Shown here piece after piece: positions 15,039-63,027 of a stretch of DNA of 64,000 bases. The notes below the pieces were generated by a model. The model saw only the letters and a list, made by a program, of their open reading frames with translations. It had not been told where the DNA came from and did no database searches. This stretch comes from Bacteroidaceae bacterium (GTDB taxonomy: Bacteria > Bacteroidota > Bacteroidia > Bacteroidales > Bacteroidaceae): contig JAFUAH010000025.1 of NCBI GenBank assembly GCA_017464345.1, forward strand, positions 26,433 to 90,432, written 5' to 3'. Position 1 is the stretch's first letter. Each line of letters starts with the position of its first letter. Position numbers and translations under genes: made by a program.

Positions 15039-15068
15039 ATGGGTCCTATTGGGCTTATGGATTGTGAC

Positions 15069-15638: not shown

Positions 15639-15654
15639 ACTTTTATATTTTTTT

Positions 15655-15756
15655 GAAGTTAAAGGGAGTTAGAGGGAGTTAAGGGAGTTAGAGGAAGTTA
15701 AAGGGAGTTAGAGGGAGTTAAAGGAAGTTAAAGGGAGTTAGAGGGAGTTAAAGGAC
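15655..15756. repeat. 10-base tandem array, left arm of a large inverted repeat
   Basis: About ten consecutive copies of a decamer of the form GRAGTTARAG (one copy is 9 bases). It is the inverse of the array at 15881-15957, so the two can pair as arms of a long stem. It lies just upstream of the threonylcarbamoyl-AMP synthase start, within its probable leader. Confidence 0.92.
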
Positions 15757-15760
15757 GATA

Positions 15761-15861
15761 GTTTTTCTCTTGTCTTGACAGTTTTTCTCTTGTCTTGACA
15801 GTTTTTCTCTTGTCTTGATAGCATTTTCTCTTGTCTTGATAGCATTTCCTCTTGTTTTATT
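15761..15861. repeat. Five tandem copies of a 20/21-base repeat
   Basis: GTTTTTCTCTTGTCTTGACA occurs twice exactly, then once with a final ATA, then as two more diverged copies beginning GCATTT. The copies are directly adjacent with no spacers, so this is not a CRISPR. It fills the space between the two decamer arrays. Confidence 0.92.
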
Positions 15862-15880
15862 TCTCAAGAAGCAGGACATT

Positions 15881-15957
15881 CGTCCTTTAACTTCCTTTAA
15901 CTTCCTCTAACTTCCTCTAACTCCCTCTAACTTCTTCTAACTCCCTCTAACTCCCCT
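15881..15957. repeat. 10-base tandem array, right arm of a large inverted repeat
   Basis: Seven to eight copies of a decamer of the form YTCYYTCTAA, the reverse complement of the left array. It ends 8 bases before the prfC stop codon at 15966, so it would form the 3' flank of the prfC transcript. Confidence 0.92.
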
Positions 15958-15965
15958 TCTCATCT

Positions 15966-17534
15966 TTAAAATTCGCTGGTGAAGTGGAAACGAATGTGCT
16001 CGAAGTCTTGCTGGGCCATCTGTAGGACATAGCCCGAATCGGCCAAAAAGACGTCGCGTCCCTCACGGTCCTTGGCCATGTACTGGTACTTGCGCTTCTT
16101 AAAGGCCTCCAACTGGACTTTATCGTCGCTCTCTATCCAGCAGGCCTTGAAAAGGCTGATGGGCTCCCAACGGCACTTGGCACCATATTCGTTCTCCAGC
16201 CGGTACTGGATGACCTCGAACTGTAACTGGCCGACCGTACCTATAATCTTACGTCCGTTGAACTGATTGATGAACAACTGGGCCACGCCCTCGTCCATCA
16301 GTTGCTCGATGCCCTTCTGTAACTGTTTGGTCTTCATTGGGTCGGCATTCTCGATATACTTAAACATCTCCGGCGAGAACGAGGGCAGGCCACGGAAGTG
16401 CATCACCTCGCCCTCGGTCAGCGTGTCGCCAATCTTGAAAATGCCGTTGTCCGGCAGTCCGATAATGTCGCCCGGCCATGCCTCGTCGATGGTGCTCTTG
16501 CGCTGGGCCATGAACTGCGTGGGACTGGAAAAACGCAGCGTCTTGCCCTGGCGGACATGCAGATACGGCGCATTGCGGACAAACTTGCCCGAACAGACTT
16601 TACAGAAGGCGATGCAGGAACGGTGGTTGGGGTCGATATTGGCCGTTATCTTGAAGATGAAGCCAGTGAATTTGGGCTCTTCGGGCGAGACCTCGCGCTC
16701 CTCGGCCTGTGTGGGACGGGGCGACGGAGCAATCTCCACAAAACAGTTGAGCAGTTCCTCCACACCAAAGTTGTTCAGTGCCGAGCCGAAGAAGACAGGG
16801 GCTACACGGGCATCGAGGTAATCCTGCACCTGGAAGGGGTCATAGACACCATCGATGAGTTCCAAGTCGTCACGGAGTTTCTGTGCATCGGACTCGCCGA
16901 CAAAATCGGCGAGCACAGTACTCTGGATGTCCACCTCCACCTTCTCCGTCACCTTCTGCTTGTCGGGGGTAAAGAGGTTCAGGCCCTGTTCGTAGATGTT
17001 ATACACGCCCTTGAACTTGGCTCCCTGGTTGATGGGCCATGAGAGGGGGCGCACCTTGATTTGCAGTTCCTCCTCCAGTTCGTCGAGCAGGTCAAAGGGG
17101 TCCTTGCCTTCTCGGTCCATTTTATTGATGAAAATGATGACCGGTGTCTTGCGCATACGACAGACAGTCATCAGTTTGCGGGTCTGGGCCTCCACGCCCT
17201 TGGCGCCATCTACGACGATGATGCAGGAATCGACGGCCGTCAGCGTACGGAAGGTGTCTTCGGCAAAATCCTGATGACCCGGAGTGTCGAGGATATTCAC
17301 TTTGTAGCCCTGGTAGTCGAACTCCATAACGGAGGTCGTAACGGAGATACCACGCTGTTTCTCAATCTCCATCCAGTCGCTGGTGGCCGTTTTCTTTATC
17401 TTATTACTCTTCACGGCACCGGCCACTTGTATCTGACCGCCAAACAAGAGCAGTTTCTCCGTCAGGGTGGTCTTTCCCGCATCGGGATGTGAAATGATGG
17501 CAAAGGTGCGTCTTCTGGTTATTTCTTCGTTCAT
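15966..17534 (-). CDS. prfC: Peptide chain release factor 3 (RF3)
   Basis: 522 residues, the usual length. RF3 is the translational GTPase that recycles RF1 and RF2 from the ribosome. The G domain shows the P-loop [13 protein letters not shown] (about 15-27), [12 protein letters not shown] as switch I, DTPGHQDF as G3 and NKMDR as G4. Downstream are the beta-barrel domain 2 and the RF3-specific C-terminal domain ([18 protein letters not shown], ending [22 protein letters not shown]). It starts 11 bases after the DUF4924 gene, so the two form a leftward pair sharing the promoter at 18150-18180. Confidence 0.97.
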
Positions 17535-17545
17535 ATGATACTTTT

Positions 17546-18115
17546 TTACAATTCGAGGTCGCCAGCCTTTTCTTTTTTATAGGCATCGGCCAGCAGGGCC
17601 AGCAGGTGCGAGATGGAGGCCACTGCGGCCTTGGTTTCCTCCGTAATTTCCTTCTTTTGCAGGCGCAGCAGCATCACGCCATAGAGGCAGTTGAAACAGG
17701 TCTCCAACTCACCGACGGGCTGAACCTCGGCAGTCCCCTCTGCTCCCCCCTTCCGACTACGCACACGCAATTCCACTATATAAGGCAAAACCTTGTAGTA
17801 TGCTGTCGAGTAGAACGGATGCCGGGGACTACTGAGAAGTTGCTGATGGAGGTCGATGAGCAACGAGAGCGTGCCACGGTTGATTTGCAGATGGCCCTGC
17901 TGCTGACAGCCCTCTTCACGCATCATGGCGATGAGGTTCTCCAGCCACTCCGTCTCCTGGTCCAGTTCCTCCCCCGTCAGCCGGAAGGCAGGCAGGTATT
18001 CGGTCTGCAGGCGGTCGATGTCGAGCCCAAAGGCCCGTATGGTATCCTCCACCTGCCACATATAGAGCAGGTACTCACAGATGTTTGTTTTTCTCAGTTG
18101 CTGGGCTATCTTCAC
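17546..18115 (-). CDS. DUF4924 family protein
   Basis: 189 residues, predicted soluble and mostly helical. It matches my memory of DUF4924, a Bacteroidetes family of unknown function: opening [20 protein letters not shown], a central [17 protein letters not shown] block, and [20 protein letters not shown] near the C-terminus. The start is a GTG at 18115, supported by an AGGAG Shine-Dalgarno-like run about 9 bases upstream; no ATG is available in frame before it. It is the first gene of the leftward pair with prfC. The conserved link to a release factor could mean a translation-related role, but nothing in the sequence proves it. Confidence 0.88.
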
Positions 18116-42762: not shown

Positions 42763-43866
42763 TCATATCGACGACGGTTTCAGCAAATGATTCCACACCC
42801 CACTCCAGAAGGCGCTCCACATACTTTCTTTGTAACACAATTCATGTTTCCAAGCATTCCCCTTCCAACGACGGTACTTAAAATGCGTACGTCTGAAAAA
42901 ACCGGCTGGCAATTCGGCGACATACTCAGGATTAAGAATGTCCTGTAAAACCCTTTCTTTCAGATTCGGTTCAAACTGGATACGGGTGAATATATGTACG
43001 TCAAGTCCCAGGTCATCGATACATATAGCATTGAAGATGTCATATAGTCTTCTCATACCATACTGATTCAATACACCTTCCAGCCAGGACCAATCCACTT
43101 CTTTTCTGTGAGCATTCACAAACAAGGCCCAATCTAAGAGTTGCCTCAACGTAATTCCTTCTGAGGCAAAATGAATCATAATATGTTTTAGCAAAAACAA
43201 GGCATGTAGGTTGGGCGATGGCAAGTACACCTTCTCTCCATACAACTCCACAACATAACTATCATCCTTAGCAAGTTCTTTGAGCAGTTTTTCAAATTCA
43301 ACATTCGATTTATGATGGTGTACATTAATAAAGTCATAATGATTCTCCACCATAAACTCACCCCAATTAAACACAGAATGATGGTGGTGTGAGTTGTCAA
43401 TCTCAAACTTCTTCGTTTTGTTCGTGCTATTCGTGTTCGCCTTCAGAAGAGCCGCATCCGCTTCCTTTTGCTGGCCAAACAGCCAGATGTCTATATCCCC
43501 ACAAGGTCTGTGTTCAGGCTTAGGCCAATCTAAGGAACAGGCGTAACCTTTCAGCACCATCATCTTAAAACCATGCTGATTATAGAAGGCTGCCATTTCA
43601 GCTATTGTCTTACGATACCGTTCACTGCGGTATTCATACCCTTGCAACACCTCACCGATCCATTGCAACAATATAATCTTTGGTGGCCGTTGCTCATCCG
43701 ATAGTTGCTCAATCCCGTCAACTATAACGGCAGAAAGCCCATGCTTACCTGCCAAGGCTTTTATGGCATCCCAATCCATTCGCTCATGCATTGGGACAAC
43801 AGAATAGTTTCCAATGCCCAAACGCACAAGCGACAAAAAAGTCTCTCTCAAATCAGCAGTTACCAT
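42763..43866 (-). CDS. Nucleotidyltransferase-fold family protein (NTP_transf_5 type)
   Basis: 367 residues from the ATG at 43866 (a TTG lies one codon upstream). The centre holds MMVLKGYACSLDWPKPEHRPCGDIDIWLFG, the degenerate pol-beta nucleotidyltransferase signature (G...R..GDIDIW) of the family Pfam calls uncharacterised nucleotidyltransferase. The remainder is helical; NSHHHHSVFNWGEFMVENHYDFINVHHH is rich in His. Homologues are common in surface-polysaccharide loci, but I know of no defined reaction. It is the last gene of the leftward locus, 51 bases after the DegT gene, and its 3' end overlaps an antisense frame that I reject. Confidence 0.88.
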   Translation of the reverse strand: MVTADLRETFLSLVRLGIGNYSVVPMHERMDWDAIKALAGKHGLSAVIVDGIEQLSDEQRPPKIILLQWIGEVLQGYEYRSERYRKTIAEMAAFYNQHGFKMMVLKGYACSLDWPKPEHRPCGDIDIWLFGQQKEADAALLKANTNSTNKTKKFEIDNSHHHHSVFNWGEFMVENHYDFINVHHHKSNVEFEKLLKELAKDDSYVVELYGEKVYLPSPNLHALFLLKHIMIHFASEGITLRQLLDWALFVNAHRKEVDWSWLEGVLNQYGMRRLYDIFNAICIDDLGLDVHIFTRIQFEPNLKERVLQDILNPEYVAELPAGFFRRTHFKYRRWKGNAWKHELCYKESMWSAFWSGVWNHLLKPSSI

Positions 43867-43917
43867 CAACTGTTAATACCCTTAACTTACCCCAGAATCT
43901 ATGAACTACGCTCTTCA

Positions 43918-47614: not shown

Positions 47615-48672
47615 ACAGCTTCCAAAACAATCTTGGCAATATCTTCTATATCGTCATAGTTATATCTTTGGTCTATCGGAATCGACAACATCCCATCTGC
47701 CATTCTTGCGGAAACAGGGCAGACAGCCCTTGCTTCATCACAGATAGGCCACAAGACAGGTGCATATACACCTCTTTTCGCCAGTTTTTGCTGCACTTCA
47801 TCACGATTACTCACAAGAATAGGTAACGAGAACGGTGCACCATCCAAACATTTTTCTATTCCTGGAATGCTTTCCACTTTTCCTTTCAGTAAGTCCAAAA
47901 TATGCGCCATGTTCTTTTGCCGAGCATAACGGATTTGTTCGCCATTCAGTACCGCCAGCATATCCATTCCTGTTTGAGAAATGCGGTGAACACCGGAGAA
48001 GTTATCCAGTTCGCCTTCCTGTCTGCGCAACTCGGGGAAGAAGCTGTTCTTCTGAGCCGCATCTTGAGAATAATTATAGTTTGCTTTTAGTCTCTGACTG
48101 TCTCTTCTCACTGTCATAAACTCCGTCTCATTATCCTCAACCACGGTTTCATCCATCGGAACTTTGCTGATAATAACAGAGCCGTCACACACACCTACCG
48201 ACTTGCGGATACTGGTCACATAATAATCCACCTGCTCGTTGTAGATGTCAGACAAGCAGAATGTACAATGCGAGAAGTCCTCTATACATATACAGTCAGG
48301 ACAACTGCACTTTATCACAGAGACTGCATCCTCCGTAGAGGCAGAGCCATAGAAGTTCATAGTCAAGGCCGCCTTTGGCCGCACTGTAACAAGCAAATGG
48401 GAAAGAAAATCCAAGTCTGCCGTCAGGTCATCATTCAAGCGATAGAACTCTACCTTCCATTCGGCTTTCTCAAACGGATCTACCATTGAGTGGCAACAAT
48501 ACGCTGGAATCAGTACCACTGGCTCCACATCGAATCCTTTCAGATTCAACGCCACAAGATGAAGTGCCTCCCTTCCCGACCTCAGCCAACTACAGTGCCC
48601 ATATCTCTCAAACGCTCCAAAATACCCATCTGGCAGTAATATCCCAGGATATTCGCTACCGAACTCTCTCAT
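47611..48672 (-). CDS. PLP-dependent enzyme, DegT-like fold type I
   Basis: 353 residues. The fold type I layout is visible: LRSGREALHLVALNL near the PLP phosphate, CIEDFSHCTF with the Asp that pairs to the pyridine nitrogen, and YVTSIRKSVGVCDGSVII holding a Lys in the Schiff-base position. It is divergent from standard DegT proteins and has several extra Cys (CSCPDCICIEDFSHCTFC). It may be an aminotransferase or another PLP enzyme that prepares the substrate for the overlapping ATP-grasp gene. It overlaps the sugar transferase gene by 4 bases. Confident on fold, not on reaction. Confidence 0.82.
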   Translation of the reverse strand: MREFGSEYPGILLPDGYFGAFERYGHCSWLRSGREALHLVALNLKGFDVEPVVLIPAYCCHSMVDPFEKAEWKVEFYRLNDDLTADLDFLSHLLVTVRPKAALTMNFYGSASTEDAVSVIKCSCPDCICIEDFSHCTFCLSDIYNEQVDYYVTSIRKSVGVCDGSVIISKVPMDETVVEDNETEFMTVRRDSQRLKANYNYSQDAAQKNSFFPELRRQEGELDNFSGVHRISQTGMDMLAVLNGEQIRYARQKNMAHILDLLKGKVESIPGIEKCLDGAPFSLPILVSNRDEVQQKLAKRGVYAPVLWPICDEARAVCPVSARMADGMLSIPIDQRYNYDDIEDIAKIVLEAV

Positions 48673-49268
48673 TTTCTATCTTCGTCTATATTAATATGTT
48701 CACGGAAAAGGACGGTCTTAATCGTTTTGAAAAAAATCTTGACATCAAGCCAGAAGGAAATATGCTCAGCGTAATATACATCGTTCTTCAGTTTGAGTTC
48801 ACCGTCTGCGCTATTACGATAATAGGCTTGGTTATAGCCAGTGATGCCAGGCTTCACCGTCAGTATGACTTTCTCATGCTCATTATATTTCTCCAACCAA
48901 TCCAGAGGATCAGGGCGAATGCCTATAAGACTCATCTGACCTGTCAGAACGTTCAAGAACTGAGGAATTTCATCCAAACTGGTTTTACGTAGAATTTTTC
49001 CGACCTTAGTCACTCTGGGGTCATCATCTCCATTATAAGTACTACCATCAGCAAGGCGAATATCTGGAGCATTCACTTTCATGCTGCGGAACTTCAGCAT
49101 CCCTAAGGGGCTGCCTTTATAACCAATACGCTTACCTGCATAGAAAATGGGGCCTCTGTCATCAAAGTAGATGAAAGGAGCAATCACAATGATTATTAGT
49201 AATACGAAAGGAAGAGCAATAAGTGCAAAGATTAGATCAATTAGTCGTTTGAAAAAGTGTACGTACAT
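48669..49268 (-). CDS. Initiating sugar phosphotransferase (PglC/WcaJ-type)
   Basis: 199 residues, the compact PglC-type monotopic phosphoglycosyl transferase. A reentrant hydrophobic helix (LIDLIFALIALPFVLLIIIV) is followed by the cytoplasmic core with RIGYKGSPLGMLKFRSM and the signature TSLDEIPQFLNVLTGQMSLIG, which contains the catalytic Asp-Glu dyad. It transfers a phosphosugar from a UDP-sugar to undecaprenyl phosphate, the first step of repeat-unit assembly. The C-terminus (VKIFFKTIKTVLFREHINID) is also typical. Overlaps of 4 bases downstream and 1 base upstream show it is part of one dense operon. Confidence 0.95.
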   Translation of the reverse strand: MYVHFFKRLIDLIFALIALPFVLLIIIVIAPFIYFDDRGPIFYAGKRIGYKGSPLGMLKFRSMKVNAPDIRLADGSTYNGDDDPRVTKVGKILRKTSLDEIPQFLNVLTGQMSLIGIRPDPLDWLEKYNEHEKVILTVKPGITGYNQAYYRNSADGELKLKNDVYYAEHISFWLDVKIFFKTIKTVLFREHINIDEDRK

Positions 49269-50491
49269 TAATTCCTTTTGTTAATTATAGATTCGTAAAT
49301 GTCTAAATATTTTTGATAACTCAGAGACTCTTCATATTGCATGGCATGCTTTCGACAAGTCTCAACGTACGTTTCTCTCGGCTTCGAACAGACCTCTTCA
49401 ATAGCTTTTACTAAAGATTCTATATCTCCCGTTGGAACAATCTTACCAGTTCCCGCTGTTATTAATTCAGGTTGTGCTGTGTTACCATAAACAATGGCAG
49501 GTGTCCCACAAGCCATAGCCTCAACTATCGTAAGACCAAATGTCTCTTCATAGGAAAGACTTAGTAGCACATCTGCTGCAGAGTAAAATTCCGCCAGCTC
49601 TTTCACACTGTTTGTACGAGATATCGCAATCACATTATTAGGAAGAACATTACGGTCATTCTCATTTGTACCAATAAGCACTATTTGGTATCCTGAGGGG
49701 AGAACTTTGCTGAGAGCGGCAAAGTCATAAATGCCCTTGCGCTCTTCAAAGCCAGAAGCGACGGCGAGTAGCATCTTATTGTTACCAATATTCAACTGCT
49801 CACGGATATTACTTTCTATATGACTAAACAGTTTAATATCCACTCCGTTGTAAACGACATTTATAGGAAAATTCTTTAGATATGACAGCTCTGCCACCCC
49901 CTTGAGCCATGAAGAGACTGTAGTTATCTTCATCTTCTCTATTGCAGTAAACAAGCGTTTTTTTAATGAGTAGTTACTCTTGCAGCGGTCAAATAAATAG
50001 CTTTTAGGAAAATCATGTTTTTGGGGACAAGACAAGCATTGCTTCTTCCATTGTTCACAATGTGTTCTTTCAAAGTGAACGCAATGCCCTGTCATCGCCC
50101 AGCAGTCATGCAGAGTCCATACTACAGGAATGCTCTTCTCGCGAAGATAATCGAAAAGAATGGGATAATTGATAAAGCAACCATGAATATTGTGGATATG
50201 CACAATATCTGGTCGTATGCTATCAATAACCTTCAAGAATTTTTTTGTAGAGTATCTAGAACCTCTGCCTTGAGCATCAAAAAGCGAACTCTCCACATAA
50301 TGAAACATCTCACCTAGTTTCGTTTCGACTTGATAATTCTTCAGGCTGCTCTCATTGAAATAACGCGCTCCATGGGCTACATAGACATTCCATCCATCCT
50401 TTATGGCTAGTTGTCCGATACCTTCAACAATCTTACCTGTTGAGCCCCAGTTTAAGGCTACGTTAATAATTAAGAGTGTGTTCTTCTCCAT
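49268..50491 (-). CDS. Glycosyltransferase family 4
   Basis: 407 residues, GT-B fold. The N-terminal half contains DIVHIHNIHGCFINYPILF and VVWTLHDCWAMTGHCVHF, followed by a cysteine group (CEQWKKQCLSCPQ) that is typical of a Bacteroidetes branch of GT4 and may bind a metal. The donor domain is complete: ASGFEERKGI, then ADVLLSLSYEETFGLTIVEA with the E-x7-E motif. It overlaps the FrhB-like gene by 22 bases. The sugar and acceptor cannot be read from sequence. Confidence 0.94.
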   Translation of the reverse strand: MEKNTLLIINVALNWGSTGKIVEGIGQLAIKDGWNVYVAHGARYFNESSLKNYQVETKLGEMFHYVESSLFDAQGRGSRYSTKKFLKVIDSIRPDIVHIHNIHGCFINYPILFDYLREKSIPVVWTLHDCWAMTGHCVHFERTHCEQWKKQCLSCPQKHDFPKSYLFDRCKSNYSLKKRLFTAIEKMKITTVSSWLKGVAELSYLKNFPINVVYNGVDIKLFSHIESNIREQLNIGNNKMLLAVASGFEERKGIYDFAALSKVLPSGYQIVLIGTNENDRNVLPNNVIAISRTNSVKELAEFYSAADVLLSLSYEETFGLTIVEAMACGTPAIVYGNTAQPELITAGTGKIVPTGDIESLVKAIEEVCSKPRETYVETCRKHAMQYEESLSYQKYLDIYESIINKRN

Positions 50492-51663
50492 CTCTTCAAC
50501 ATAGTCTTAATCTTATAGCGCCACACGTTTGGTATATAGTTTTTCAGCGAATCTATAACTCTGGACTTCAAGGGCAATTCGTAAGGAATCGCGTCAAAGC
50601 CATTTTCATTAAGAGCCTGATATACTACGTCTCTTATTGGTTTCCTTTTGGTCGGTAGTCTCAGGTTCCCATTATAGTTAATTATATCACTCAATTCAAC
50701 CTCGGTAGCATCCAAACCAGGTTCGACACTAGCCCATAATTGCCGTCCTTTATCAGAATTCACCAATGCACAAGATACACCTCTAATATCGAACAATTCC
50801 GGATGTGTATTCTCTATTCCCCAAAAGTCTCCTATCGTTATGTCGCCCGGCCTATTGTTCTGGGAATAGGGACAAGCGTAACAACTTTCCCTATAAGTAT
50901 TACCCTCAAGGAAATTATAGTAATAGGGGTCAAGCGATGCAATCTTCAAATGTTCCTGAATACGTCCATTATTCTTTGACGTCACATTGAGCGTCAGTGA
51001 CCATTGATGCCTCTTCTTGCTTCTAAATTCGACACTGCTTATTGCACCATATTTATCAGATAACCATTTGAGGTAAGTAGCATATAATTTACGGCTTGGT
51101 ACTCCATGACAAATGATATCCACGCAATAAAGATTGTCATACCCCTTCGTGAGATAGTTTTTTAAACCTGCCACTTGGCAAGGCCCCCCCGTAAATAAAA
51201 CGATTACTCCCTTATCAAGATACTCTTTAACTTGGGTGTAGATGTTCCCCATACTGCTTTGAACGTATTTCGAACCTCTCAGTTGCCTTGCCTCTTCCAA
51301 TGTAGTTGCTATCACATGATGTGGCATCAATGAATCATCAACCCCACAACCACAAACAACTCCATTCTGACCACAAACATATTTCGCCATTTCATAGAAC
51401 AGACCACCTGACGAGCATTCTTTCAAGTCAGCATCTGATGTCGTTTTGGCCGCATAGCCCTTTTGTTCTTCATGACAGACATTAACGGTATGAATGGGGC
51501 AGGCTTTTAGACACTTTCCACAATTGACACATTTATCTTGGTCAATATGCGGCTGCAAAAAGCCCTCCTCATCCTCCTTAAAGGCTATTGCATGTTTATG
51601 ACAGGACTGTTCACAAGCCCTACAGCCGCAACAGGTTTGTCCTATGATTGAGATATTCTCCAT
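50470..51663 (-). CDS. FrhB-like ferredoxin-domain protein of polysaccharide loci
   Basis: 397 residues. The N-terminus has two iron-sulphur binding runs: CCGCRACEQSCHKHAI and CVNCGKCLKACP, a 2[4Fe-4S] ferredoxin-like domain. The rest matches the coenzyme F420 hydrogenase/dehydrogenase beta-subunit family (SSGGLFYEMAKYV, GGPCQVAGLKNYL, CVDIICHGVPSRKL, CPYSQNNRPGDITIGDFWGI). In Bacteroidetes such genes stand beside polysaccharide pyruvyl transferases, as here (22-base gap). F420 itself is not expected in this phylum, so the electron carrier and reaction are unclear; reduction of a sugar intermediate is one possibility. Confidence 0.92.
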   Translation of the reverse strand: MENISIIGQTCCGCRACEQSCHKHAIAFKEDEEGFLQPHIDQDKCVNCGKCLKACPIHTVNVCHEEQKGYAAKTTSDADLKECSSGGLFYEMAKYVCGQNGVVCGCGVDDSLMPHHVIATTLEEARQLRGSKYVQSSMGNIYTQVKEYLDKGVIVLFTGGPCQVAGLKNYLTKGYDNLYCVDIICHGVPSRKLYATYLKWLSDKYGAISSVEFRSKKRHQWSLTLNVTSKNNGRIQEHLKIASLDPYYYNFLEGNTYRESCYACPYSQNNRPGDITIGDFWGIENTHPELFDIRGVSCALVNSDKGRQLWASVEPGLDATEVELSDIINYNGNLRLPTKRKPIRDVVYQALNENGFDAIPYELPLKSRVIDSLKNYIPNVWRYKIKTMLKRWRRTHS

Positions 51664-51685
51664 ACACTCGCCATTTATCGCATAA

Positions 51686-52786
51686 TTAGCTTAATGAGTT
51701 TTTTAAGTATTCGTGTGACTTTTTTCTTACCTCCCCTATCCGAGGATTCACCAACTGGTAATCAATTGAGGAAGATGCAGCCATCAGACCTTCTGTTACT
51801 GAACCAACCAATCTTGTATCCAAAAGACCAGCAATTCTCAGTATACTCTCAATCCTGGAATTGTACCGTGGTGCTTTCACCACTATCACCTGACGGTTCA
51901 AGTTCAGCGAGAAAGCCGTTCCGTGGAAGGAATCTGTCACCACATAATCCGCATGTGCGATGTGGTTCACAAAGTCTTCAGCAGAATTGCCAAAGCGGTT
52001 CTCTGCTCCCTTAATGAAATCGAAAGTGTCGGCAAAGTTGATGATGCGCAGCCCTTTCTCCTTGGCTATGGCTTGTGCCACTTCCTTAATCAGACCATTC
52101 CTGTTTAAATTATACACAAACACATATCCTGGCTTTGGGGCATTCTTCACGGATGCGAACTTTCTCCAGTCATCCCCTCTCAGCAACAGCGTAGGGTCAA
52201 CCACGTGAACGCCTTTGTCAAAGCCAAACTGGTGAAGTATCTTCAAACCGTCATCTTCACGTACAGAGATATGGTCGTATTTGGCAATATACTCTTTGAT
52301 GATGGCTTCCTCTTCTGGCGTAAAGGAGTTCTTGCCAAAGCTCCCTGCGTAGGCAATACGTTTCTTGCCTTCTGGTGCAAAGCCCAGATAGTAGGCTTTC
52401 AAGTCCTCTGGCGGATTGTTATTCTGTGTGTTCCACACCTGGTCACTTCCGCTCAGATAGGCATCTGCCAAAGGGATGTCATTGATGATGTCCTGATAGC
52501 AGCTGTATCTCTTTCTGGAGAGATGAATATACTTACGTAGAAATCTGTTTACATCGTGGTATTCTATCAAATTGACCACAAATAGCGGGGGCAATTTAAT
52601 AAGTTTCTTCCATGCCGGAACATTGTTCTTGGGCCAACATCCCCTCTTGAAAGAAATACCTTCCGGCACGAAGTCCAGCACTTCTGCTTCGTGTCCGAGT
52701 TTTTCAATGGCGGTCTGTGTAGCATACGTCTGCAACATGGAGCCGAAATTGGTGATTCGATGCAGGGTGATAATCTCAACCTTCAT
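51686..52786 (-). CDS. Polysaccharide pyruvyl transferase family protein
   Basis: 366 residues from the ATG at 52786; a GTG four codons upstream is less likely. It opens MKVEIITLHRITNFGSMLQTYA, the N-terminal motif of the family, and carries DAYLSGSDQVWN, RIAYAGSFG, VDPTLLL and HADYVVTDSFHGTAFSLNL near the C-terminus, where the conserved His-Gly-T of these enzymes lies. Family members add a pyruvate ketal to a sugar from phosphoenolpyruvate, although several members have other or unknown donors. It pairs with the FrhB-like protein downstream. Confidence 0.93.
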   Translation of the reverse strand: MKVEIITLHRITNFGSMLQTYATQTAIEKLGHEAEVLDFVPEGISFKRGCWPKNNVPAWKKLIKLPPLFVVNLIEYHDVNRFLRKYIHLSRKRYSCYQDIINDIPLADAYLSGSDQVWNTQNNNPPEDLKAYYLGFAPEGKKRIAYAGSFGKNSFTPEEEAIIKEYIAKYDHISVREDDGLKILHQFGFDKGVHVVDPTLLLRGDDWRKFASVKNAPKPGYVFVYNLNRNGLIKEVAQAIAKEKGLRIINFADTFDFIKGAENRFGNSAEDFVNHIAHADYVVTDSFHGTAFSLNLNRQVIVVKAPRYNSRIESILRIAGLLDTRLVGSVTEGLMAASSSIDYQLVNPRIGEVRKKSHEYLKNSLS

Positions 52787-52850
52787 AGGATATAACACAA
52801 TGGGGATTATATCTTGTCAGACCAATCCCATAATACAAATAACTTTATCA

Positions 52851-54072: not shown

Positions 54073-55335
54073 TTATATCTTAATTTTTGTCTTATTCCAC
54101 TTTTGCATTATCATATACAACCAAAAAGGCAGACAAATAAGATATACATAATTAATCAAATTAGTCGCTAAATAGCCCCTTGAAATCGTGTTATAACAAT
54201 ATCCGTTGAATAAAGCTAAAGCTAATATGGCACCCGGTGATGTTGAGTGAGCACGGTAATTCGTCCAAAACAAATTCACAAACCAGCCCAACAACAAGGG
54301 CCACAAAATGACACCTAACCAACCAAAAGAAAAGAATCCCTCCGTGAAATAAAGAAAAATAGCTCCATGATCCGCCGTACCTATAATTTTAATCTGAGAC
54401 CTCATCAAATAACGCCCGTCTGGTTTCCAAGGGAATACAGAACGAGGTATAGGTGATAGTAATGCGTTTAAAATTGGTTCGAAATATACATAATCATGTT
54501 CGCGTTGACAGTAATCCATTGTGACAGCAGAGAACCAATACACTGAATAATTTTCATCTGCGCCTCCTTTAATATCATTGTAGGAAATTTCATTAAGAGC
54601 CTCACGATTAAGGCCTTTACTATATTGTCTTGTCTTATCCATTATGCTAAAGCCTAAAAAAACGCCTGTAGCTAAAACAATCGCATATACATAGTTCACA
54701 CGACGTGGACAAGGCCATAAATAATAAACAGTAATCGCAGATGCTATCATAACGACCAACCTCGCACGAGTGCCTGCGAAAATAAATGAGATAACTATAT
54801 ACAGCATTAAAGGTATATACCACCATTTCATACCCTTGACTTTTCCCCTCATGAGGAACAAGCTGAATGCAGCTTCATAAAGATAGAGAAGTTCCAAGAA
54901 ATAATGCTCTATGTCGTTATGCACTAAATTAAGTTCATTGTCTTCTGCAAAAATACTGAAATGCACCCCACGGAAAGAGGAATAGCCAACGAAAGCTAAA
55001 GCAAAGCACAATATCGCAGCCCACTCCATCCGTTTGAGCTTAAAACAATTATTCCAATGACTGAAAGATACATTTATCTTCCTCGTAGAAGCAAAAAGTA
55101 AACAGATATAGGAAAGTAAGGCTCCGACATGAAACAACGCCAAGTTGGTTTTAGCATCTACATGATACCTCTCATTGCCACCTGTATAATACGGAACTAT
55201 GCAATAATAGACATAAACCATACTTATGATAGTAAGAGGATGAAATATGAGAGCCCGATCCTTACTAAATACCACCTTACAGAAGTAACCTACAATCAGA
55301 ACTATTAAAGCAAAAACAGACAATTGTACTATCAT
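54073..55335 (-). CDS. O-antigen/capsule repeat-unit polymerase (Wzy-like)
   Basis: 420 residues, strongly hydrophobic, with about eleven to twelve membrane segments and a larger external loop at about 225-320 (NREALNEISYNDIKGGADEN, then PIPRSVFPWKPDGRYLMRSQ). That topology and the P-R-x-x-x-P-x-K-P pattern in the loop are as in oligosaccharide repeat-unit polymerases of the Wzy type, which join lipid-linked repeats in the periplasm. It lies between a flippase (2 bases upstream) and a glycosyltransferase. Wzy proteins vary widely, so the call rests on topology and position. Confidence 0.88.
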   Translation of the reverse strand: MIVQLSVFALIVLIVGYFCKVVFSKDRALIFHPLTIISMVYVYYCIVPYYTGGNERYHVDAKTNLALFHVGALLSYICLLFASTRKINVSFSHWNNCFKLKRMEWAAILCFALAFVGYSSFRGVHFSIFAEDNELNLVHNDIEHYFLELLYLYEAAFSLFLMRGKVKGMKWWYIPLMLYIVISFIFAGTRARLVVMIASAITVYYLWPCPRRVNYVYAIVLATGVFLGFSIMDKTRQYSKGLNREALNEISYNDIKGGADENYSVYWFSAVTMDYCQREHDYVYFEPILNALLSPIPRSVFPWKPDGRYLMRSQIKIIGTADHGAIFLYFTEGFFSFGWLGVILWPLLLGWFVNLFWTNYRAHSTSPGAILALALFNGYCYNTISRGYLATNLINYVYLICLPFWLYMIMQKWNKTKIKI

Positions 55336-57058: not shown

Positions 57059-58099
57059 CTACATAACGTCCACTCCTATCCGTTCGAAAAATCGAATTAG
57101 ATTGTCGTTTTGCTCACCACACTGAAGGAAGAGCGACGTAACATGAAAACCCATCTTGCGAGCACTCATCAATCCTGCACTCTTGATGCCTAAAATCTTG
57201 ATGGTATCCTTTTGAGAAGCCAAGGAAAGATAGAGACTTTCTGCCCCTATGCTCTTCTCTAAGATGGTACAACCCTCAAATACAGGCCAGACAAGTTCTT
57301 CGCGTGGATGGAACTTACAGAAGATTTGCCTTCCTTCTACACTGGCTTGTTCTTTTAAATGAGCAATGACTGCCTTAACTTTTTCGGGATTAAGATAAGT
57401 TACAAGTTTATCTACAATGAGTAAAATTGAACCGTCAGGGATATTTAAGCTTTTGACATCATATAGTGATTTAACACCCGTCAGGTATTCTTCATCCGAT
57501 ATACCTACAAGTTCACGTTTTGAACGGTATGGTTCTCTAACCGCATTAGGATATAGAGTATAAACTTGCTTGAAGAAACGTAGCCCACCCATTGCTTCGA
57601 AGTCTCGGTCATAAATGACACCTAATCCCATTAGATACTTGAAAAAGAATTTTCTTATAGTGTAAGTGATTGTATATTTGTCAAAACCTACATGAGTATC
57701 TATGTTGGGGAAATAAGAGAGTATTCCATCCTCCAACCAGATATATTGGGTATCTTTATTCTGTTTCTTACAGCATTTCAAACAATACTGAACAGGAGGT
57801 GTCCAGTCACAGACTGCAAATACTCTGTCGTATGGTTTGACAATCTGTTTTCTTAACAGCTTATTATCTTCACGGTGCCACTTTATTCTTGCTTTTAAGG
57901 TCTTGTTTTCTGCAGGAAAGTTACCCGTCAAGAATAGGCATGTTTCAAAAACAGCTTGTAATTTGACCTTTAGTTCATCACCAAGGTTGAAATCCCGGAA
58001 CAGTACCAAATGATTCTCGTCATCCTTGAATCGCCCCTGCGAGAGACCACAAGCAAGAATCAGATGTGCTTGAGTATGGCAAACAAATAGGTTTCTCAT
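57059..58099 (-). CDS. Sialyltransferase-like glycosyltransferase (CMP-sugar type)
   Basis: 346 residues. Two features known to be shared by bacterial sialyltransferases of families GT38, GT52 and GT80 are visible: an E-D-G motif at 123-125 (in QYIWLEDGILSYF) and an H-P motif at 264-265 (in IFCKFHPREEL), with a Ser at about 307 (GIKSAGL) where those enzymes have a conserved Ser/Thr. There is no signal peptide. It follows five bases after the PfkB kinase and lies in the same cassette as a CMP-sugar synthetase, which supports a CMP-activated donor. The exact family and sugar are inferred; the overall sequence is divergent. Confidence 0.75.
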   Translation of the reverse strand: MRNLFVCHTQAHLILACGLSQGRFKDDENHLVLFRDFNLGDELKVKLQAVFETCLFLTGNFPAENKTLKARIKWHREDNKLLRKQIVKPYDRVFAVCDWTPPVQYCLKCCKKQNKDTQYIWLEDGILSYFPNIDTHVGFDKYTITYTIRKFFFKYLMGLGVIYDRDFEAMGGLRFFKQVYTLYPNAVREPYRSKRELVGISDEEYLTGVKSLYDVKSLNIPDGSILLIVDKLVTYLNPEKVKAVIAHLKEQASVEGRQIFCKFHPREELVWPVFEGCTILEKSIGAESLYLSLASQKDTIKILGIKSAGLMSARKMGFHVTSLFLQCGEQNDNLIRFFERIGVDVM

Positions 58100-58104
58100 A
58101 TCTC

Positions 58105-59142
58105 TTATCTCTTTACTCTTCCACTGGCATCACCCTCCATCAAGTTCTCTACCTCTTGGACCATGACCCAGTTATAATCTCCTTTTAAGGTATGTTTCAA
58201 GCAACTAGCGGCAGTGGCGAACTCCAATGCCTTCTGTTCACCATTATAGTGCAACAAACCAAAGATAAGACCGCCCATGAAACTGTCGCCACCACCCACA
58301 CGGTCAACAATATCGGTGATATCATAGCGGCGGCTCTCCAATAGTTCTTCACCATTGTACAACACACCACCCCATGTGTTATGGTTGGCATTGATGGCAC
58401 CTCGAAGGGTGATAGCCATCTTTTTGCAGCGTGGGAACTTCTTCATCATCTGCTGGCATACGCTGATGAAGATCCGTTGGTCTATCTCACCACCTGTGCT
58501 TTCAACGTCAAAACTCTCTGGCTTGATACCGAAGACCTTTTCACAGTCTTCCTCGTTTCCAAGAATAATATCACAACCAGCCACTAACTCAGGCATCACC
58601 TCAGAGGCTTTCTTACCATATTTCCACAGGTTGCCGCGGTAATTGATGTCACAGCTGACGGTGACGCCCAGCTCATTGGCAGTATTGATGGCTTTCAGGC
58701 ACTCTTTAGCTGTATTCTCAGACAAGGCTGGTGTGATACCTGTCCAATGGAACCAGTTAGCATCCTTTAAGATTTCTTTCCAGTTAATAGATCCAGGTAA
58801 AACGGTGGCTATGGCACTATCCTCGCGATCATAGTACACTTTGGAGGGACGTGCGTTGCTACCGGTTTCCAAATAGAGGATGCCCATGCGTTTACCTGAA
58901 CGCTGAATATGGTCAACGCCTACCTTATGCCCCCGCAAATCCATAATGCAACGTTCCGCAATTGGATTGTCAGGAAGGCAGGTGATATAATCGGTTTCTA
59001 TACCATAATTGGCCAGTGATACGGCCACGTTAGCCTCAGCACCGGCATAGCTCACATCAAAACGGTTTGCCTGTATGAGCTTTAGATAATCTGGTGCCCC
59101 CAGCCGTACCATTATCTCTCCAAAAGTTACTACTTTCGCCAT
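58105..59142 (-). CDS. PfkB-family kinase, 2-keto-3-deoxygluconate kinase-like
   Basis: 345 residues. It opens VVTFGEIMVRL as KDG kinases do, has the first ribokinase signature region in SYAGAEANVAVSLANYG, SCDINYRGNLW in the middle, and DIVDRVGGGDSFMGGLIFGL at the C-terminal signature with the catalytic Asp. KDG kinase phosphorylates a 3-deoxy-2-keto sugar acid. Here it sits one base after the aldolase and five bases before the transferase gene, so its substrate may be the sugar acid made by this cassette and not a catabolic intermediate; that is inference. Confidence 0.92.
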   Translation of the reverse strand: MAKVVTFGEIMVRLGAPDYLKLIQANRFDVSYAGAEANVAVSLANYGIETDYITCLPDNPIAERCIMDLRGHKVGVDHIQRSGKRMGILYLETGSNARPSKVYYDREDSAIATVLPGSINWKEILKDANWFHWTGITPALSENTAKECLKAINTANELGVTVSCDINYRGNLWKYGKKASEVMPELVAGCDIILGNEEDCEKVFGIKPESFDVESTGGEIDQRIFISVCQQMMKKFPRCKKMAITLRGAINANHNTWGGVLYNGEELLESRRYDITDIVDRVGGGDSFMGGLIFGLLHYNGEQKALEFATAASCLKHTLKGDYNWVMVQEVENLMEGDASGRVKR

Positions 59143-59143
59143 A

Positions 59144-60679
59144 CTATTCTATCATCTGATAAATAGATGTCACATCCAAAGTTCTGTAAATAGACGGGGT
59201 GAGAGATTTCATCTGATGACCACAGGTCTTGGCATAACTGCTGAAGATCTCGTTGTTCTCGTGGGTCAGCGAAACCTCCTTCTCAGACAGCACACTGCCC
59301 GGATAGCCGTCATAGCCCACCAGATAGACTTCTCCATCAGTCAGGTTCAGACCAAGCTGGATAGCCACGGTTGTAACAGAATCCTTATACTCATCAATGA
59401 AGGAGATATCCTTCAGCTCGTAGGTGCTGTTTCCTGCATACTCTGGCACCTCAGTTCCCATTGTTCTGGGATATGGAGGAAGCACACAGGTTCCTGCATA
59501 CTTGGCTTTCCCCACGTTGGAAGTCAAACGATGACCTTCATTACCCACAAGACAGTAGAAAGTCGATTCCTTGCGACCCAAGAACAGTTTTGCATGTCGT
59601 GCAGTGGCAAGGACTAAAGCTGTATCTGGGTGATGGTCAAGATACTCGCAGATGGCCGCAACATGCTCTGCCACGGTATTACCGCCACCAATCACCAAAA
59701 CTTGTTTGAACTTTTTGGAAACATCAAGGACTGGATACTTAGCATTATCCTCTTTTTTGTCCTTACGGTTGTCTAGTGCCCGCACAATGCTGTTAAAGGA
59801 ATATACGCGGTTGCTTACCCATTCCATTACCTCCTTCTGGGGGAAAGAGTTGGCACCTGAAATCATATAAGGCAGACTACTTCCCCAACGATATTTCTCA
59901 TAAAGAGGCATAAAGGTCTGGACAGCATCACCCAGTTCGTTGAAGTTCACCTTCAGTCCTGCATGCTTGTTCAGATAGGTGAGCAGAAGCTCCATATTCA
60001 GGTTTCCAGCACCACGCCCCATGCCAAGGATTGTGGCATCCACGCTATCCACACCACATTCCATAGCCGTGAGGGTATTGATGAGCCCCAACTGAAGGTT
60101 GTTATGTCCGTGGAAACCAATCTGACAAGTGAGATACTTCTTTAGGTTGGCAATGATGACGCGCACTTCATTAGGTGAAACACTTCCGTAAGAGTCCACC
60201 ATATTGAAGATTTTGATAACACCATTCAACTTAGGAAGCTTTTCCAACAAACCCTCATATTGTTCCCACTTGGACATATACATCACGTTGAAGGCTACTT
60301 CAAAACCGTACTCTTTCACCTGCTCTGCCAGCACAGCTGCTCTGTCCAGTTTCTTGGGGTCAACCGCCATACGGATCATATCCACCACACCCATTAAGGG
60401 AGCAATCAGATGCTCCAAATCTTCAGACTTGGTACTCTTCTCATTGAGCATCACTGCCAGTTTCTGTTTGGAGTTCTCTCGGATGTGTTTTAATACAGAC
60501 AAAGGGCAATAGCCAAACTTACCGCAATACTCCTTCTGAGGAGTATTGCGGTAGCCTAATTCCAAATAGTCAATCGGGAGACCATTCATCGCCTTGATGT
60601 AGGCATCCACGGTATTTTCGTTGAAGTCCCAATTTGTGTAATATCCACCATCCCTCAACGTACAGTCAAGTATTTCCAT
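59144..60679 (-). CDS. DRE-TIM pyruvate aldolase fused to a Rossmann-like domain
   Basis: 511 residues from the ATG at 60679; an upstream start at 60715 would overlap kdsB by 32 bases. Residues 1-285 form an HMGL-like aldolase barrel: LDCTLRDGGYYTNW (D-x-T-L-R-D-G), the metal-binding H-G-H at 190-192 and DATILGMGRGAGN. These closely resemble 4-hydroxy-2-oxovalerate aldolases, which join pyruvate to an aldehyde. From about 325 a second domain begins (KQVLVIGGGNTVAEHVAAICEYL, with GGGNT at 331-335; VYLVGYDGY at about 451-459). It recalls DUF115/GT42-like Rossmann folds but is not assigned. Gene order suggests it makes an ulosonic-acid-type sugar for CMP activation. Confidence 0.88.
   Translation of the reverse strand: MEILDCTLRDGGYYTNWDFNENTVDAYIKAMNGLPIDYLELGYRNTPQKEYCGKFGYCPLSVLKHIRENSKQKLAVMLNEKSTKSEDLEHLIAPLMGVVDMIRMAVDPKKLDRAAVLAEQVKEYGFEVAFNVMYMSKWEQYEGLLEKLPKLNGVIKIFNMVDSYGSVSPNEVRVIIANLKKYLTCQIGFHGHNNLQLGLINTLTAMECGVDSVDATILGMGRGAGNLNMELLLTYLNKHAGLKVNFNELGDAVQTFMPLYEKYRWGSSLPYMISGANSFPQKEVMEWVSNRVYSFNSIVRALDNRKDKKEDNAKYPVLDVSKKFKQVLVIGGGNTVAEHVAAICEYLDHHPDTALVLATARHAKLFLGRKESTFYCLVGNEGHRLTSNVGKAKYAGTCVLPPYPRTMGTEVPEYAGNSTYELKDISFIDEYKDSVTTVAIQLGLNLTDGEVYLVGYDGYPGSVLSEKEVSLTHENNEIFSSYAKTCGHQMKSLTPSIYRTLDVTSIYQMIE
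60520..60553. repeat. 14-bp inverted repeat inside the aldolase gene
   Basis: TACCGCAATACTCC at 60520-60533 and GGAGTATTGCGGTA at 60540-60553 with a 6-base loop. It lies near the start of the aldolase reading frame, which is undisturbed. Confidence 0.9.
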
Positions 60680-60683
60680 TGTC

Positions 60684-61430
60684 CTATTTCTGCAGCTTGG
60701 CTGACATGATTTCATTTACTTTCTTCAGGTCGTTAGGCGTATCTACCGCCACGGTCTCAGAATCCACTTCTATGAACTGCACCTTGTAGCCGCTCTCGAT
60801 GAAGCGCAGAATCTCAATATCCTCAATCGCCTCAATCTTTGCCTTGCCGTACTTCTTTCCGTAATCACAGTAGAACTTCAGAGCGGCAGGAGTAAAGCCA
60901 TACACACATACTTGCTTGTAGTAAGCATAGTCAATGCGTCCTTTCGGATAAGGTGCTGTAGAACGGGTCAGGTAGATGCCAATTCCTTCTTTGTTGGTGA
61001 TGACTTTAGGGATAGTGAAATTCACCACATCCACAGGGTCGGTAATCTTGGTCATCAGGTTGGATACCTGAAGTTCCTTGTTGTCAAAGAACGGAAGAAT
61101 AGCCTTCTCCATCACCTCAGGCTCCATCAGCGGCTCGTCGCCCTGGATGTTCACATAGAGGTCGGCAGGAATATTCTCTGCTACCTCACCAATGCGGTCT
61201 GTGCCGGTACGATGTGATGTAGAGGTCATGATACAATTCATATCGAACTTCTCGCAGGCATTATAGATGCGCTGGTCATCTGTAGCCACGTAGAGCTTGT
61301 CAAAATACTTCACTTGGCTGGCGTGTTGATACACCCACCAGATCATTGGCTTACCACAAATATCAGCCAAAGGTTTGCCCTGGAAGCGAGAACTCTCGTA
61401 ACGGGCGGGGATAACTCCGATAATTTTCAT
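60684..61430 (-). CDS. kdsB: KdsB-type CMP-ulosonic acid synthetase
   Basis: 248 residues, the usual length. It activates a 3-deoxy-ulosonic acid (Kdo in known cases) with CTP. Landmarks: IPARYESSRFQGKPLADICGKPMI (nucleotide loop), VATDDQRIYNACEKF, STSHRTGTDRIGE, and VNIQGDEPLMEP with the metal-binding Asp. LTRSTAPYP and VDTPNDLKKV close the sequence. It could be a second copy dedicated to this locus, separate from a housekeeping gene for lipid A core; no other copy is in the window. It is 4 bases upstream of the aldolase, so the two are surely cotranscribed. Confidence 0.93.
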   Translation of the reverse strand: MKIIGVIPARYESSRFQGKPLADICGKPMIWWVYQHASQVKYFDKLYVATDDQRIYNACEKFDMNCIMTSTSHRTGTDRIGEVAENIPADLYVNIQGDEPLMEPEVMEKAILPFFDNKELQVSNLMTKITDPVDVVNFTIPKVITNKEGIGIYLTRSTAPYPKGRIDYAYYKQVCVYGFTPAALKFYCDYGKKYGKAKIEAIEDIEILRFIESGYKVQFIEVDSETVAVDTPNDLKKVNEIMSAKLQK

Positions 61431-61494: not shown

Positions 61495-63027
61495 TCATCT
61501 AATCCTTAGTAACTTCTTTAGAGGAGCCATAAGTAGGTCTCGTTCACTCTGGTTTAATCCAAATTTATATAAGAGAGCGACATAAACTAAGACGTATCCC
61601 ACAACCCACAGAGCCAAAGCAATCCATGATGTAATCTGAACTTGACGAGTTACAAACACAAAAACCGCTGTTACAATAATTGGAGTAATATTCATTCTCA
61701 TTATTTCTCCCCAGAATTTTTTTATGGCAATGTCTTGTTTACGGGTGTAGTAAATGTTCATAATGATGCCCTGCCCCACTACTAATGCACCTGCCACAGC
61801 AATTGCACAACCGATCTCCCCCCACCATTTTGCAAAAAGATATTGTAAGCCCAAAGAGAAAACAGCTATAATAATATAGAGAACTGAGCGGAAAGCCATC
61901 TGGTTACGGGCTTGAAGGATGGTAATTCCCAAGTTTTGTATCAATGGGACATAAAGGGAGGCAAAGAACAGCAACGCAATCAAATAAGAACTACCATAAT
62001 CAGGCCCTGCCCATAGAAGGACAAAAGGCTTACCGAAAGTCAAGAAGCCAAACAAGATTAAGGCCATTACGATGTTTTGTATCCTTCCTGTTCTAATAAA
62101 CAAGTCCGAAATCTCCTTATTGTCAGACTGCTTGGCCACCATTCCTGTTACCTTGGGGAGGAATACGCCCGATATTGCGGTTGAGAACTGCAAATACATG
62201 GATTGTAACTGAATGCCCACTGCAAAATGGGCAATAGCAATTGTTCCTGCAACAGCACCTAAAATGAATTGGCCGGTACTCCAGTATATTCTATCCATGA
62301 TTGCATTTAGAAAAATCCATAATGAATAGATGGAAACCTCCTTAAGGAATGACCATTGAAATTTGCCGTAATGCAGTTCTATCTGCAAGTTTCTCTTACA
62401 ATAGATGTAATTAATAATCAGTGTTATTACATTGAATGCCGTTTGAGCTATTACCATGGCGATAGCCTTATATCCTATTGTCAATAAGGCAACCATAATA
62501 ACGGTATTAAGTACAACTCTGCAAATGTTAATCACCTTTGGAAAGACAAACCTTTCGTAAGCTGACATAATACTTCCGAAAATGCTCATCGGGAAAGTAA
62601 ATGCTATATTTAAGGTTAGGATTAACATCATTATCTGGGCATGGGCCAGCTCTATAGCCGTCATTGTATTCCCGAACATTCTATCTACATTGAAATACAA
62701 TCCCAGTCCAGCGGCAAAAGCTATTGCACCTATAATAAAGTATAGAACGAAGAACATTCCGAATATCTTATACTGTTCTTTCTGCTTACCCTCCGCCCTA
62801 AATTTTGCGGTATATCGCACAATAGCATTGCCAAAACCCAAGTCAAGAATTGTAAGATAGCCAATAACAGATGAGACCAAGGAATACAAACCGAATTCGC
62901 TTTTCCCCATCATACGCAACATATATGGTGTATAGACAAGTGCTACAACAGCATTCAGAATTATTAAAACGTAATTCAATGCTGCTCCTGCTTTAAGTTG
63001 GTTTATATCCCTAAGATCTCCTTTCAT
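61495..63027 (-). CDS. Polysaccharide flippase (Wzx/RfbX-like), first of two
   Basis: 510 residues, about fourteen membrane segments. The opening LKAGAALNYVLIILNAVVALVYTPYMLRMMG and FGLYSLVSSVIGYLTILDLGFGNAIVRY match the MOP-type polysaccharide exporters (PF01943/PF13440). It lies upstream of kdsB with a 64-base gap, so it may flip the product of the CMP-sugar cassette, while the flippase at 55338 goes with the polymerase. The codon and base composition are A+T-rich like the rest of the locus. Confidence 0.93.
   Translation of the reverse strand: MKGDLRDINQLKAGAALNYVLIILNAVVALVYTPYMLRMMGKSEFGLYSLVSSVIGYLTILDLGFGNAIVRYTAKFRAEGKQKEQYKIFGMFFVLYFIIGAIAFAAGLGLYFNVDRMFGNTMTAIELAHAQIMMLILTLNIAFTFPMSIFGSIMSAYERFVFPKVINICRVVLNTVIMVALLTIGYKAIAMVIAQTAFNVITLIINYIYCKRNLQIELHYGKFQWSFLKEVSIYSLWIFLNAIMDRIYWSTGQFILGAVAGTIAIAHFAVGIQLQSMYLQFSTAISGVFLPKVTGMVAKQSDNKEISDLFIRTGRIQNIVMALILFGFLTFGKPFVLLWAGPDYGSSYLIALLFFASLYVPLIQNLGITILQARNQMAFRSVLYIIIAVFSLGLQYLFAKWWGEIGCAIAVAGALVVGQGIIMNIYYTRKQDIAIKKFWGEIMRMNITPIIVTAVFVFVTRQVQITSWIALALWVVGYVLVYVALLYKFGLNQSERDLLMAPLKKLLRIR

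Follow-up and report, generated by a model that had tools for sequence, protein, structure and literature searches.

How might a bacterium make an ulosonic-acid-like sugar for its surface when the genes that would activate it lie beside a pyruvate aldolase, and not beside a synthase that uses phosphoenolpyruvate (PEP)? The question is posed by a 64,000-nucleotide stretch of a Bacteroidaceae genome (assembly GCA_017464345.1, contig JAFUAH010000025.1, positions 26,433 to 90,432; hereafter, the window), in which four tightly packed open reading frames (ORFs) on the minus strand, at 57059-61430, encode a KdsB-like cytidine monophosphate (CMP)-sugar synthetase, an HMGL aldolase, a PfkB kinase and a PF07388 transferase. 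To our knowledge, the CMP-ulosonate pathways known for 3-deoxy-D-manno-octulosonic acid (Kdo), sialic, pseudaminic and legionaminic acids all start from a PEP-dependent synthase (the routes being KdsA-KdsC-KdsB, NeuB-NeuA and the 9-phosphate route). We consider it fairly probable that the core of this gene set serves to make a 3-deoxy-2-ulosonic acid, or a closely related 2-keto acid, and to activate it with CMP; the carbon skeleton would be built by a metal-dependent pyruvate aldolase instead of a PEP-dependent NeuB or KdsA. The gene layout given by an earlier, sequence-only reading of the window (four adjacent leftward genes, 1 to 5 bases apart) was borne out, with ORFs at the same coordinates and gaps of 4, 1 and 5 bases once the aldolase start is placed at 60679, and the family labels were confirmed by Pfam and NCBIfam profile scores.

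The strictly conserved unit proved smaller than four genes, and consists of a two-domain aldolase and a CMP-sugar synthetase. Full-length aldolase relatives were recovered from 5 of the 398 other same-family genomes (55-63% identity), from 8 of 394 other genomes of the phylum sample (44-51%) and from a named collection (39 loci, of which L061 and L062 are distant, at 29% and 27%), spanning Bacteroidota and some Proteobacteria; the closest aldolases in named records (82-87%) belonged to Bacteroidales RUG429, Prevotella sp. UBA2754 and a sheep-rumen Bacteroidaceae metagenome-assembled genome (MAG). Before counting, we dropped L014 (the same as L027), L017 (the same as L030), L098 (the same as L052), L039 (layout as in L038), L023 (a match of just 79 residues) and four short relatives (L019-L022). 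A CMP-sugar synthetase was encoded at most four genes away, on the same strand, in 49 of the 51 remaining aldolase rows (window included), the two misses being a contig that ends inside a KdsB-like gene and the 27%-identical outlier L062, which was kept and counted as a miss. As some rows are close relatives (L048/L059, L050/L057, L033/L034, L054/L055), these counts refer to sequences and not to events. All nine phylum-sample loci (in 8 genomes; 8 of the loci are among the 51 rows, and the ninth duplicates L052) had the synthetase within three genes and a HAD gene. Further afield, the two Leisingera plasmids examined (of three matched) were both annotated as aldolase-KdsB-HAD, and the SAR86 contig (L061) carried the same three genes in a different order.

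The partner of the aldolase is of two kinds, 32 of the 49 synthetases being NeuA/PseF-like and 17 KdsB-like. Mapped on the aldolase tree, synthetase type requires by parsimony a minimum of nine changes (a count on that tree, in which 17 of 52 inner branches are open), and it differs within the well-supported sister pairs L097/L099 and L053/L104. The aldolase is thus the constant element and the type of synthetase the variable one. Short relatives that lack the extra domain had no synthetase nearby in the four Bacteroidales loci of our own search, and, judging by annotation alone (from an incomplete gene table), none was found beside the short plasmid relatives in Priestia, Mesorhizobium, Paraburkholderia, Desulfobaculum and Legionella. 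The Desulfobaculum plasmid (L117:3846-8014) has its short HMGL gene next to rfbH and two transketolase-type genes, which may be a further instance of such aldolases serving sugar synthesis. Around the long aldolase, no additional gene family is shared by most loci, which hints that the acceptor is a common metabolite.

What chemistry, then, could the aldolase perform? The sequence-only reading had called it a pyruvate aldolase of the 4-hydroxy-2-oxovalerate type. In favour of that label, the best NCBIfam model for the barrel is PRK08195 (4-hydroxy-2-oxovalerate aldolase, 116.6 bits) and the R-D...H-x-H metal site is kept; against it, the scores fall under the family cut-offs (229 for PRK08195; 97.4 bits against 286 for the TIGR03217 equivalog) and a tyrosine occupies the position of DmpG His21. 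Residues R21, D22, H202 and H204 do not vary across the 43 aligned rows (the window's own among them) and align with R17, D18, H200 and H202 of DmpG. The tyrosine (Tyr25 in the window) is found in 42 of the 43 rows, and also in two short relatives (L094 and L095), so that it is not peculiar to the cassette; since it replaces a histidine that we presume to be functional in DmpG, the chemistry of the cassette aldolases may differ from that of DmpG. Compared with the DmpG/BphI enzymes, with which they share the TIM-barrel family and the aligned R, D, H and H residues, the cassette aldolases are thus set apart by this tyrosine, by an extra transferase-like domain and by an adjoining CMP-sugar synthetase. 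Read from its first ATG, the window ORF shares 32 bases with the KdsB-like gene; because relatives such as L027 start at an in-frame M-[EK]-I-L-D-C that corresponds to Met13 (base 60679), this is the likely start. The best structural match of the barrel is PDB entry 3dxi ('Putative aldolase'), whose sequence is that of the barrel in the Phocaeicola vulgatus ATCC 8482 cassette enzyme (locus L027, 703 bits); the entry carries no assigned function and does not comprise the C-terminal domain, while RefSeq names the protein merely 'aldolase catalytic domain-containing protein'. The best-scoring solved structure after 3dxi is a 4-hydroxy-2-oxovalerate aldolase.

The C-terminal 200 residues had been absent from the sequence-only reading, and no Pfam or NCBIfam model matches them (residues 320-523). 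An AlphaFold model of the region is a confident alpha/beta domain (predicted local distance difference test score 94.5, predicted TM-score 0.91). Profile comparison with hhalign matched it to MptE-like transferases that other genomes encode after the cassette (91.7%, E 7.9e-7, 140 columns), to a second MptE-like set at just 9.7%, and, in an early local run, to small transferase clusters over short stretches and weakly (7.6, 6.2 and 52%); a weak match to the GT42 sialyltransferase CstII (2p2v, E 0.036) was also registered. These profiles, uneven as they are between sets (91.7% versus 9.7%), suggest that the domain may be related to MptE-like transferases. It was matched in 10 of 345 sampled Bacteroidota genomes, nine of which are genomes with aldolase matches; the tenth holds a divergent HMGL aldolase with the same domain order (L114:989-2737, 28 bits), found once, on a 3.5 kb contig. 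No stand-alone copy was present among the matches in these 345 genomes, and no relative was confirmed in the viral contigs searched with the domain. We reason that the domain probably binds CMP or a CMP-sugar, as a feedback sensor or as a docking surface.

The window synthetase belongs to CTP_transf_3 and passes the cut-off of the KdsB subfamily model NF009905 (255 bits), yet it stays below those of the KdsB equivalogs NF003948 and TIGR00466, and shares 34% identity with the other KdsB of the same genome. Where KdsB has KHIGLYAYR and LEQLR (the standard motifs, retained in the other KdsB of the genome and in both PDB KdsB sequences compared), the window enzyme reads QVCVYGF and EDIEILR, departing from the pattern [KR]H[IV]G[IL]YAYR/LEQLR. 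The same substitutions (His of the first motif to Gln, Gln of the second to Ile) recur in 14 of the 17 cassette KdsB-like enzymes, and the other three (L033, L034, L047) have yet other letters. A study of the Aquifex enzyme places Kdo binding in residues 100-210, and Asp and Lys positions that probably match the catalytic residues given there are kept in the cassette enzymes (PMC3149649). Because the His and Gln of the KdsB motifs are replaced, the substrate is probably not Kdo. A simple Kdo cassette is, given these altered motifs, held unlikely.

Next to this pair, most loci encode a third enzyme. Over the 51 rows it was a HAD phosphatase in 30, a PfkB kinase in 10 and neither in 11, and the two never occurred together; the HAD/PfkB difference amounts to one change on the aldolase tree. 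PfkB rows came from Bacteroidales or same-family genomes, with the exception of L058, a MAG labelled Christensenellaceae. In the 10 genomes searched, the window kinase shows 77-87% identity to its cassette counterparts and 46-69% to the remaining copies; in a 19-row tree the cassette kinases form a single clade beside the kinases of 2-keto-3-deoxygluconate (KDG), with 100/100 support. By sequence it belongs to the KDG kinase family, with YDR..S and DRVGGGDS-type motifs in common with copies from two uronate-type loci and with others. A recent origin of the cassette gene by copying of a catabolic KDG kinase was considered and rejected, all cassette kinases falling on one side of the 100/100 branch. 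The KDG kinase of uronate catabolism thus shares family and motifs with the cassette copies, whereas the latter make up a clade of their own and adjoin a CMP-sugar synthetase in place of a 2-keto-3-deoxy-6-phosphogluconate (KDPG) aldolase. Two non-cassette copies, in L076 and L079, adjoin KDPG aldolase and altronate dehydratase. The nearest outside relative (69%) adjoins a KDPG aldolase and has an altronate dehydratase close by, which suggests a KDG-like (i.e. 2-keto-3-deoxy) substrate for the cassette kinase. The kinase had been seen as the weakest link of the proposal, since CMP transfer needs a free anomeric hydroxyl. KDG kinases phosphorylate the terminal hydroxyl, far from the anomeric one; therefore, if the cassette enzyme acts as they do, CMP transfer to C2 would not be blocked and the worry is lifted.

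Some loci hold additional genes. One encoding a second aldolase, of the HpcH/HpaI type, lies between the long aldolase and the synthetase in L035 (6086-6802), and also in L042, L044, L046, L049 (short), L096, L097 and L101. An epimerase/dehydratase-type gene, perhaps sugar-modifying, is inserted in L101 (11982-12869; Pfam-tested), L046 (12960-13877), L049 (12280-13221) and L099 (9038-9979).

The product of the fourth gene, the window transferase, scores above the cut-off of PF07388 (alpha-2,8-polysialyltransferase), and its predicted sialyltransferase motifs are exactly as first described (E123-D124-G125 and H264-P265). In nine aligned rows (window included; 13-18% identity to the window) G125 and P265 are invariant, and the histidine of H-P is an arginine in three. 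At E values up to 1e-5, nothing that matched this transferase turned up in the 398 other genomes of the family, and on that ground the exact four-gene set was rejected as a conserved entity; the synthetase-aldolase-kinase order recurs in L024 and L025, with different transferases. The cassette is nevertheless often followed by genes of related kinds: PF07388 proteins above the cut-off in L046, L054, L058, L097 and L104, GT29 in L038 (six loci in the same cluster), GT52 in L024, and MptE-like genes above the cut-off in L016, L018 and L042. Our own hidden Markov models (HMMs) detected sialyltransferase-type genes downstream in 24 of 47 loci and upstream in 0 of 48, a contrast biased in favour of the downstream side, as the models were built from clusters picked there. 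In this count L062 was left out, the window was not included and the same strand was not required (the L018 MptE-like gene lies on the other strand); taken in were five genes of cluster c12 below the Pfam cut-off (likened by hhalign to the MptE-like set at 97.9%), L099 (no Pfam match) and L102 (just below the cut-off). In the other loci the next genes encode flippases, ordinary glycosyltransferases, sulfotransferase-like and unassigned proteins.

Is a PEP-dependent synthase really missing? The remark that none of NeuB/KdsA type is in view holds for the window's own genome, where a search brought up neither a NeuB nor a KdsA (in an assembly that is 61% complete). NeuB was searched for in 36 cassette genomes (fewer than all those holding a row; KdsA in the window's own genome alone), and was absent from 14 of them, including the isolate drafts L030, L046 and L059. 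Like the CMP-Kdo and CMP-nonulosonic acid pathways, the module combines CTP_transf_3-type CMP activation with sialyltransferase-type transferases and, in many loci, a HAD phosphatase gene; it differs from them in having no PEP-dependent synthase, with a class II pyruvate aldolase as the constant C-C bond-forming enzyme, in the altered sugar-domain motifs of its KdsB-like members, and in the kinase that replaces the phosphatase in ten rows.

Reading from family membership and gene linkage, we propose the following order of reactions. The HMGL barrel would join pyruvate to an aldehyde or aldehyde phosphate, and a second enzyme, irreversible in practice, would pull the product forward (in most rows the HAD phosphatase; in ten, the window's among them, the KDG-kinase-type kinase). 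A KdsB- or NeuA-like enzyme would then link CMP to the free C2 hydroxyl, and a sialyltransferase-type transferase would place the sugar in a surface polysaccharide flipped by Wzx. Phosphatase and kinase may accordingly be alternative pulls on the reversible aldol reaction, and both the identity of the sugar and the direction of the reaction are what we infer from this scheme. The different route to an ulosonic-acid-like sugar, as first put forward, gains from the synthetase tie (49/51), the frequent sialyltransferase-type genes and the 14 of 36 genomes without NeuB, and loses its exact four-gene unit. Several observations weigh against the proposed pathway. NeuB is present in 22 of the 36 genomes, and in L015 (same family) a NeuB gene and a fused NeuA-HAD gene (16874-17749 and 14861-16015) share the locus of the cassette. 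The replacement of a phosphatase by a kinase is chemically awkward, and 11 of 51 rows have neither (among these, contig ends truncate L036 and L043, L062 is the divergent row, and the HAD of L092 was missed by ORF calling). The HpcH/HpaI-type aldolase of eight rows, all among the 30 HAD rows, is unexplained by the model; in roughly half of the loci, the genes that come next include none recognised as sialyltransferase-type; and the tyrosine at the His21 position, with the divergent chemistry it may bring, belongs here too. Apart from this weighing, the arrangement in L015 leaves room for two CMP-ulosonate pathways that may feed one polysaccharide.

Part of this evidence could be taken to mean that the locus makes CMP-Kdo or another known CMP-ulosonic acid for the capsule, with substrate from the normal PEP-dependent pathway and the aldolase as a neighbour with a different job. 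The KdsB subfamily score of the window synthetase and the 22 NeuB-bearing genomes speak for this, as does the Kdo that Gram-negative cells presumably make anyway; yet a bystander aldolase should hardly be the constant element while the synthetase type varies, and neither the motifs of the KdsB-like enzymes (Gln/Ile for His/Gln in 14 of 17, other letters in 3) nor the 14 genomes without NeuB fit easily, which leaves us regarding it as quite improbable. We deem it unlikely as well that the HMGL protein performs other chemistry, such as the addition of a pyruvate or acyl carbanion onto a keto sugar (extension or branching), in which case the acid receiving CMP would be branched or have more carbons. 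The HMGL relatives include synthases of citramalate, homocitrate and isopropylmalate, and the Tyr for His21, the HpcH-type second pyruvate aldolase and the inserted epimerase-type genes would agree with it, whereas the top-scoring models, and the top solved structure after 3dxi, are 4-hydroxy-2-oxovalerate aldolases.

That aldolase and kinase instead work in the catabolic direction, degrading scavenged ulosonic or 2-keto-3-deoxy acids, seems very unlikely to us: two non-cassette kinase relatives do lie in uronate-catabolism-type loci, and a BNR-repeat (sialidase-like) gene directly follows the cassette in L102 (11893-13146), but CMP activation is anabolic, and genes for flippases and transferases are present in the loci examined. 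Least credible of all is a chance adjacency; capsule loci are presumably mosaics, and some rows are close relatives, but it is contradicted by a linkage that holds in 49 of 51 rows, involves two dissimilar types of synthetase and extends over Bacteroidota, a SAR86 contig and Leisingera. The module is real, conserved and functionally coherent, and the idea of a pathway probably right in outline. More tentatively, and with the odds rather against it, it may typify a whole class of CMP-ulosonate pathways that do without PEP. In these, a CMP-sensing domain derived from a sialyltransferase would be fused to a pyruvate aldolase, and the fusion would make short-chain (C5-C7, e.g. KDG-like) or undescribed ulosonic acids for surface glycans, the phosphatase or kinase replacing PEP as the driving force.

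The cassette is part of a larger surface-polysaccharide locus, which also encodes a flippase, the initiating and pyruvyl transferases and further glycosyltransferases (Table 1), in a 1.9 Mb assembly whose contig stops at the end of the window. Within this capsule locus, an FrhB/FdhB-type iron-sulphur protein adjoins the pyruvyl transferase (50470-52798), and an uncharacterised nucleotidyltransferase (PF14907, 141 bits) lies at the edge of the locus (42763-43869).

Table 1. Cassette and neighbouring features, in window positions.
Feature	Position	Strand	Evidence
KdsB-like CMP-sugar synthetase, 248 aa, altered sugar-domain motifs	60684..61430	-	PF02348 161 bits; NF009905 274.6 bits
Two-domain aldolase, 523 aa from first ATG, likely start 60679	59144..60715	-	PF00682 87.9 bits; 3dxi 486 bits
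Aldolase C-terminal domain, residues 320-523, MptE/GT42-like	59147..59758	-	hhalign; weak CstII match
PfkB kinase, KDG-kinase type, 345 aa	58105..59142	-	PF00294 115.6 bits
Sialyltransferase-type glycosyltransferase, 346 aa, PF07388	57059..58099	-	37.0 bits, cut-off 23.3
Wzx-type flippase	61495..63027	-	PF01943 67.9 bits
UDP-GlcNAc 2-epimerase, truncated by contig end	63328..63999	-	PF02350 108.6 bits
Possible Wzy-type polymerase	54073..55335	-	TIGR04370 21.5 bits, below cut-off 40
Polysaccharide pyruvyl transferase	51686..52798	-	PF04230 133 bits
Initiating sugar-phosphate transferase	48669..49268	-	PF02397 195.5 bits

No description of the module was found among the titles and abstract openings that our searches of the open-licence literature brought up, and the accessible part of PMC3210612 does not identify the product. 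The aldolase module is present in about 1 to 2% of the sampled genomes of the family and the phylum, gut species included. If the proposed pathway is true, these bacteria would carry a so far unassigned set of acidic surface sugars, which would provide a new set of donors for sialyltransferase-type enzymes, and the orphan structure 3dxi would gain a function.

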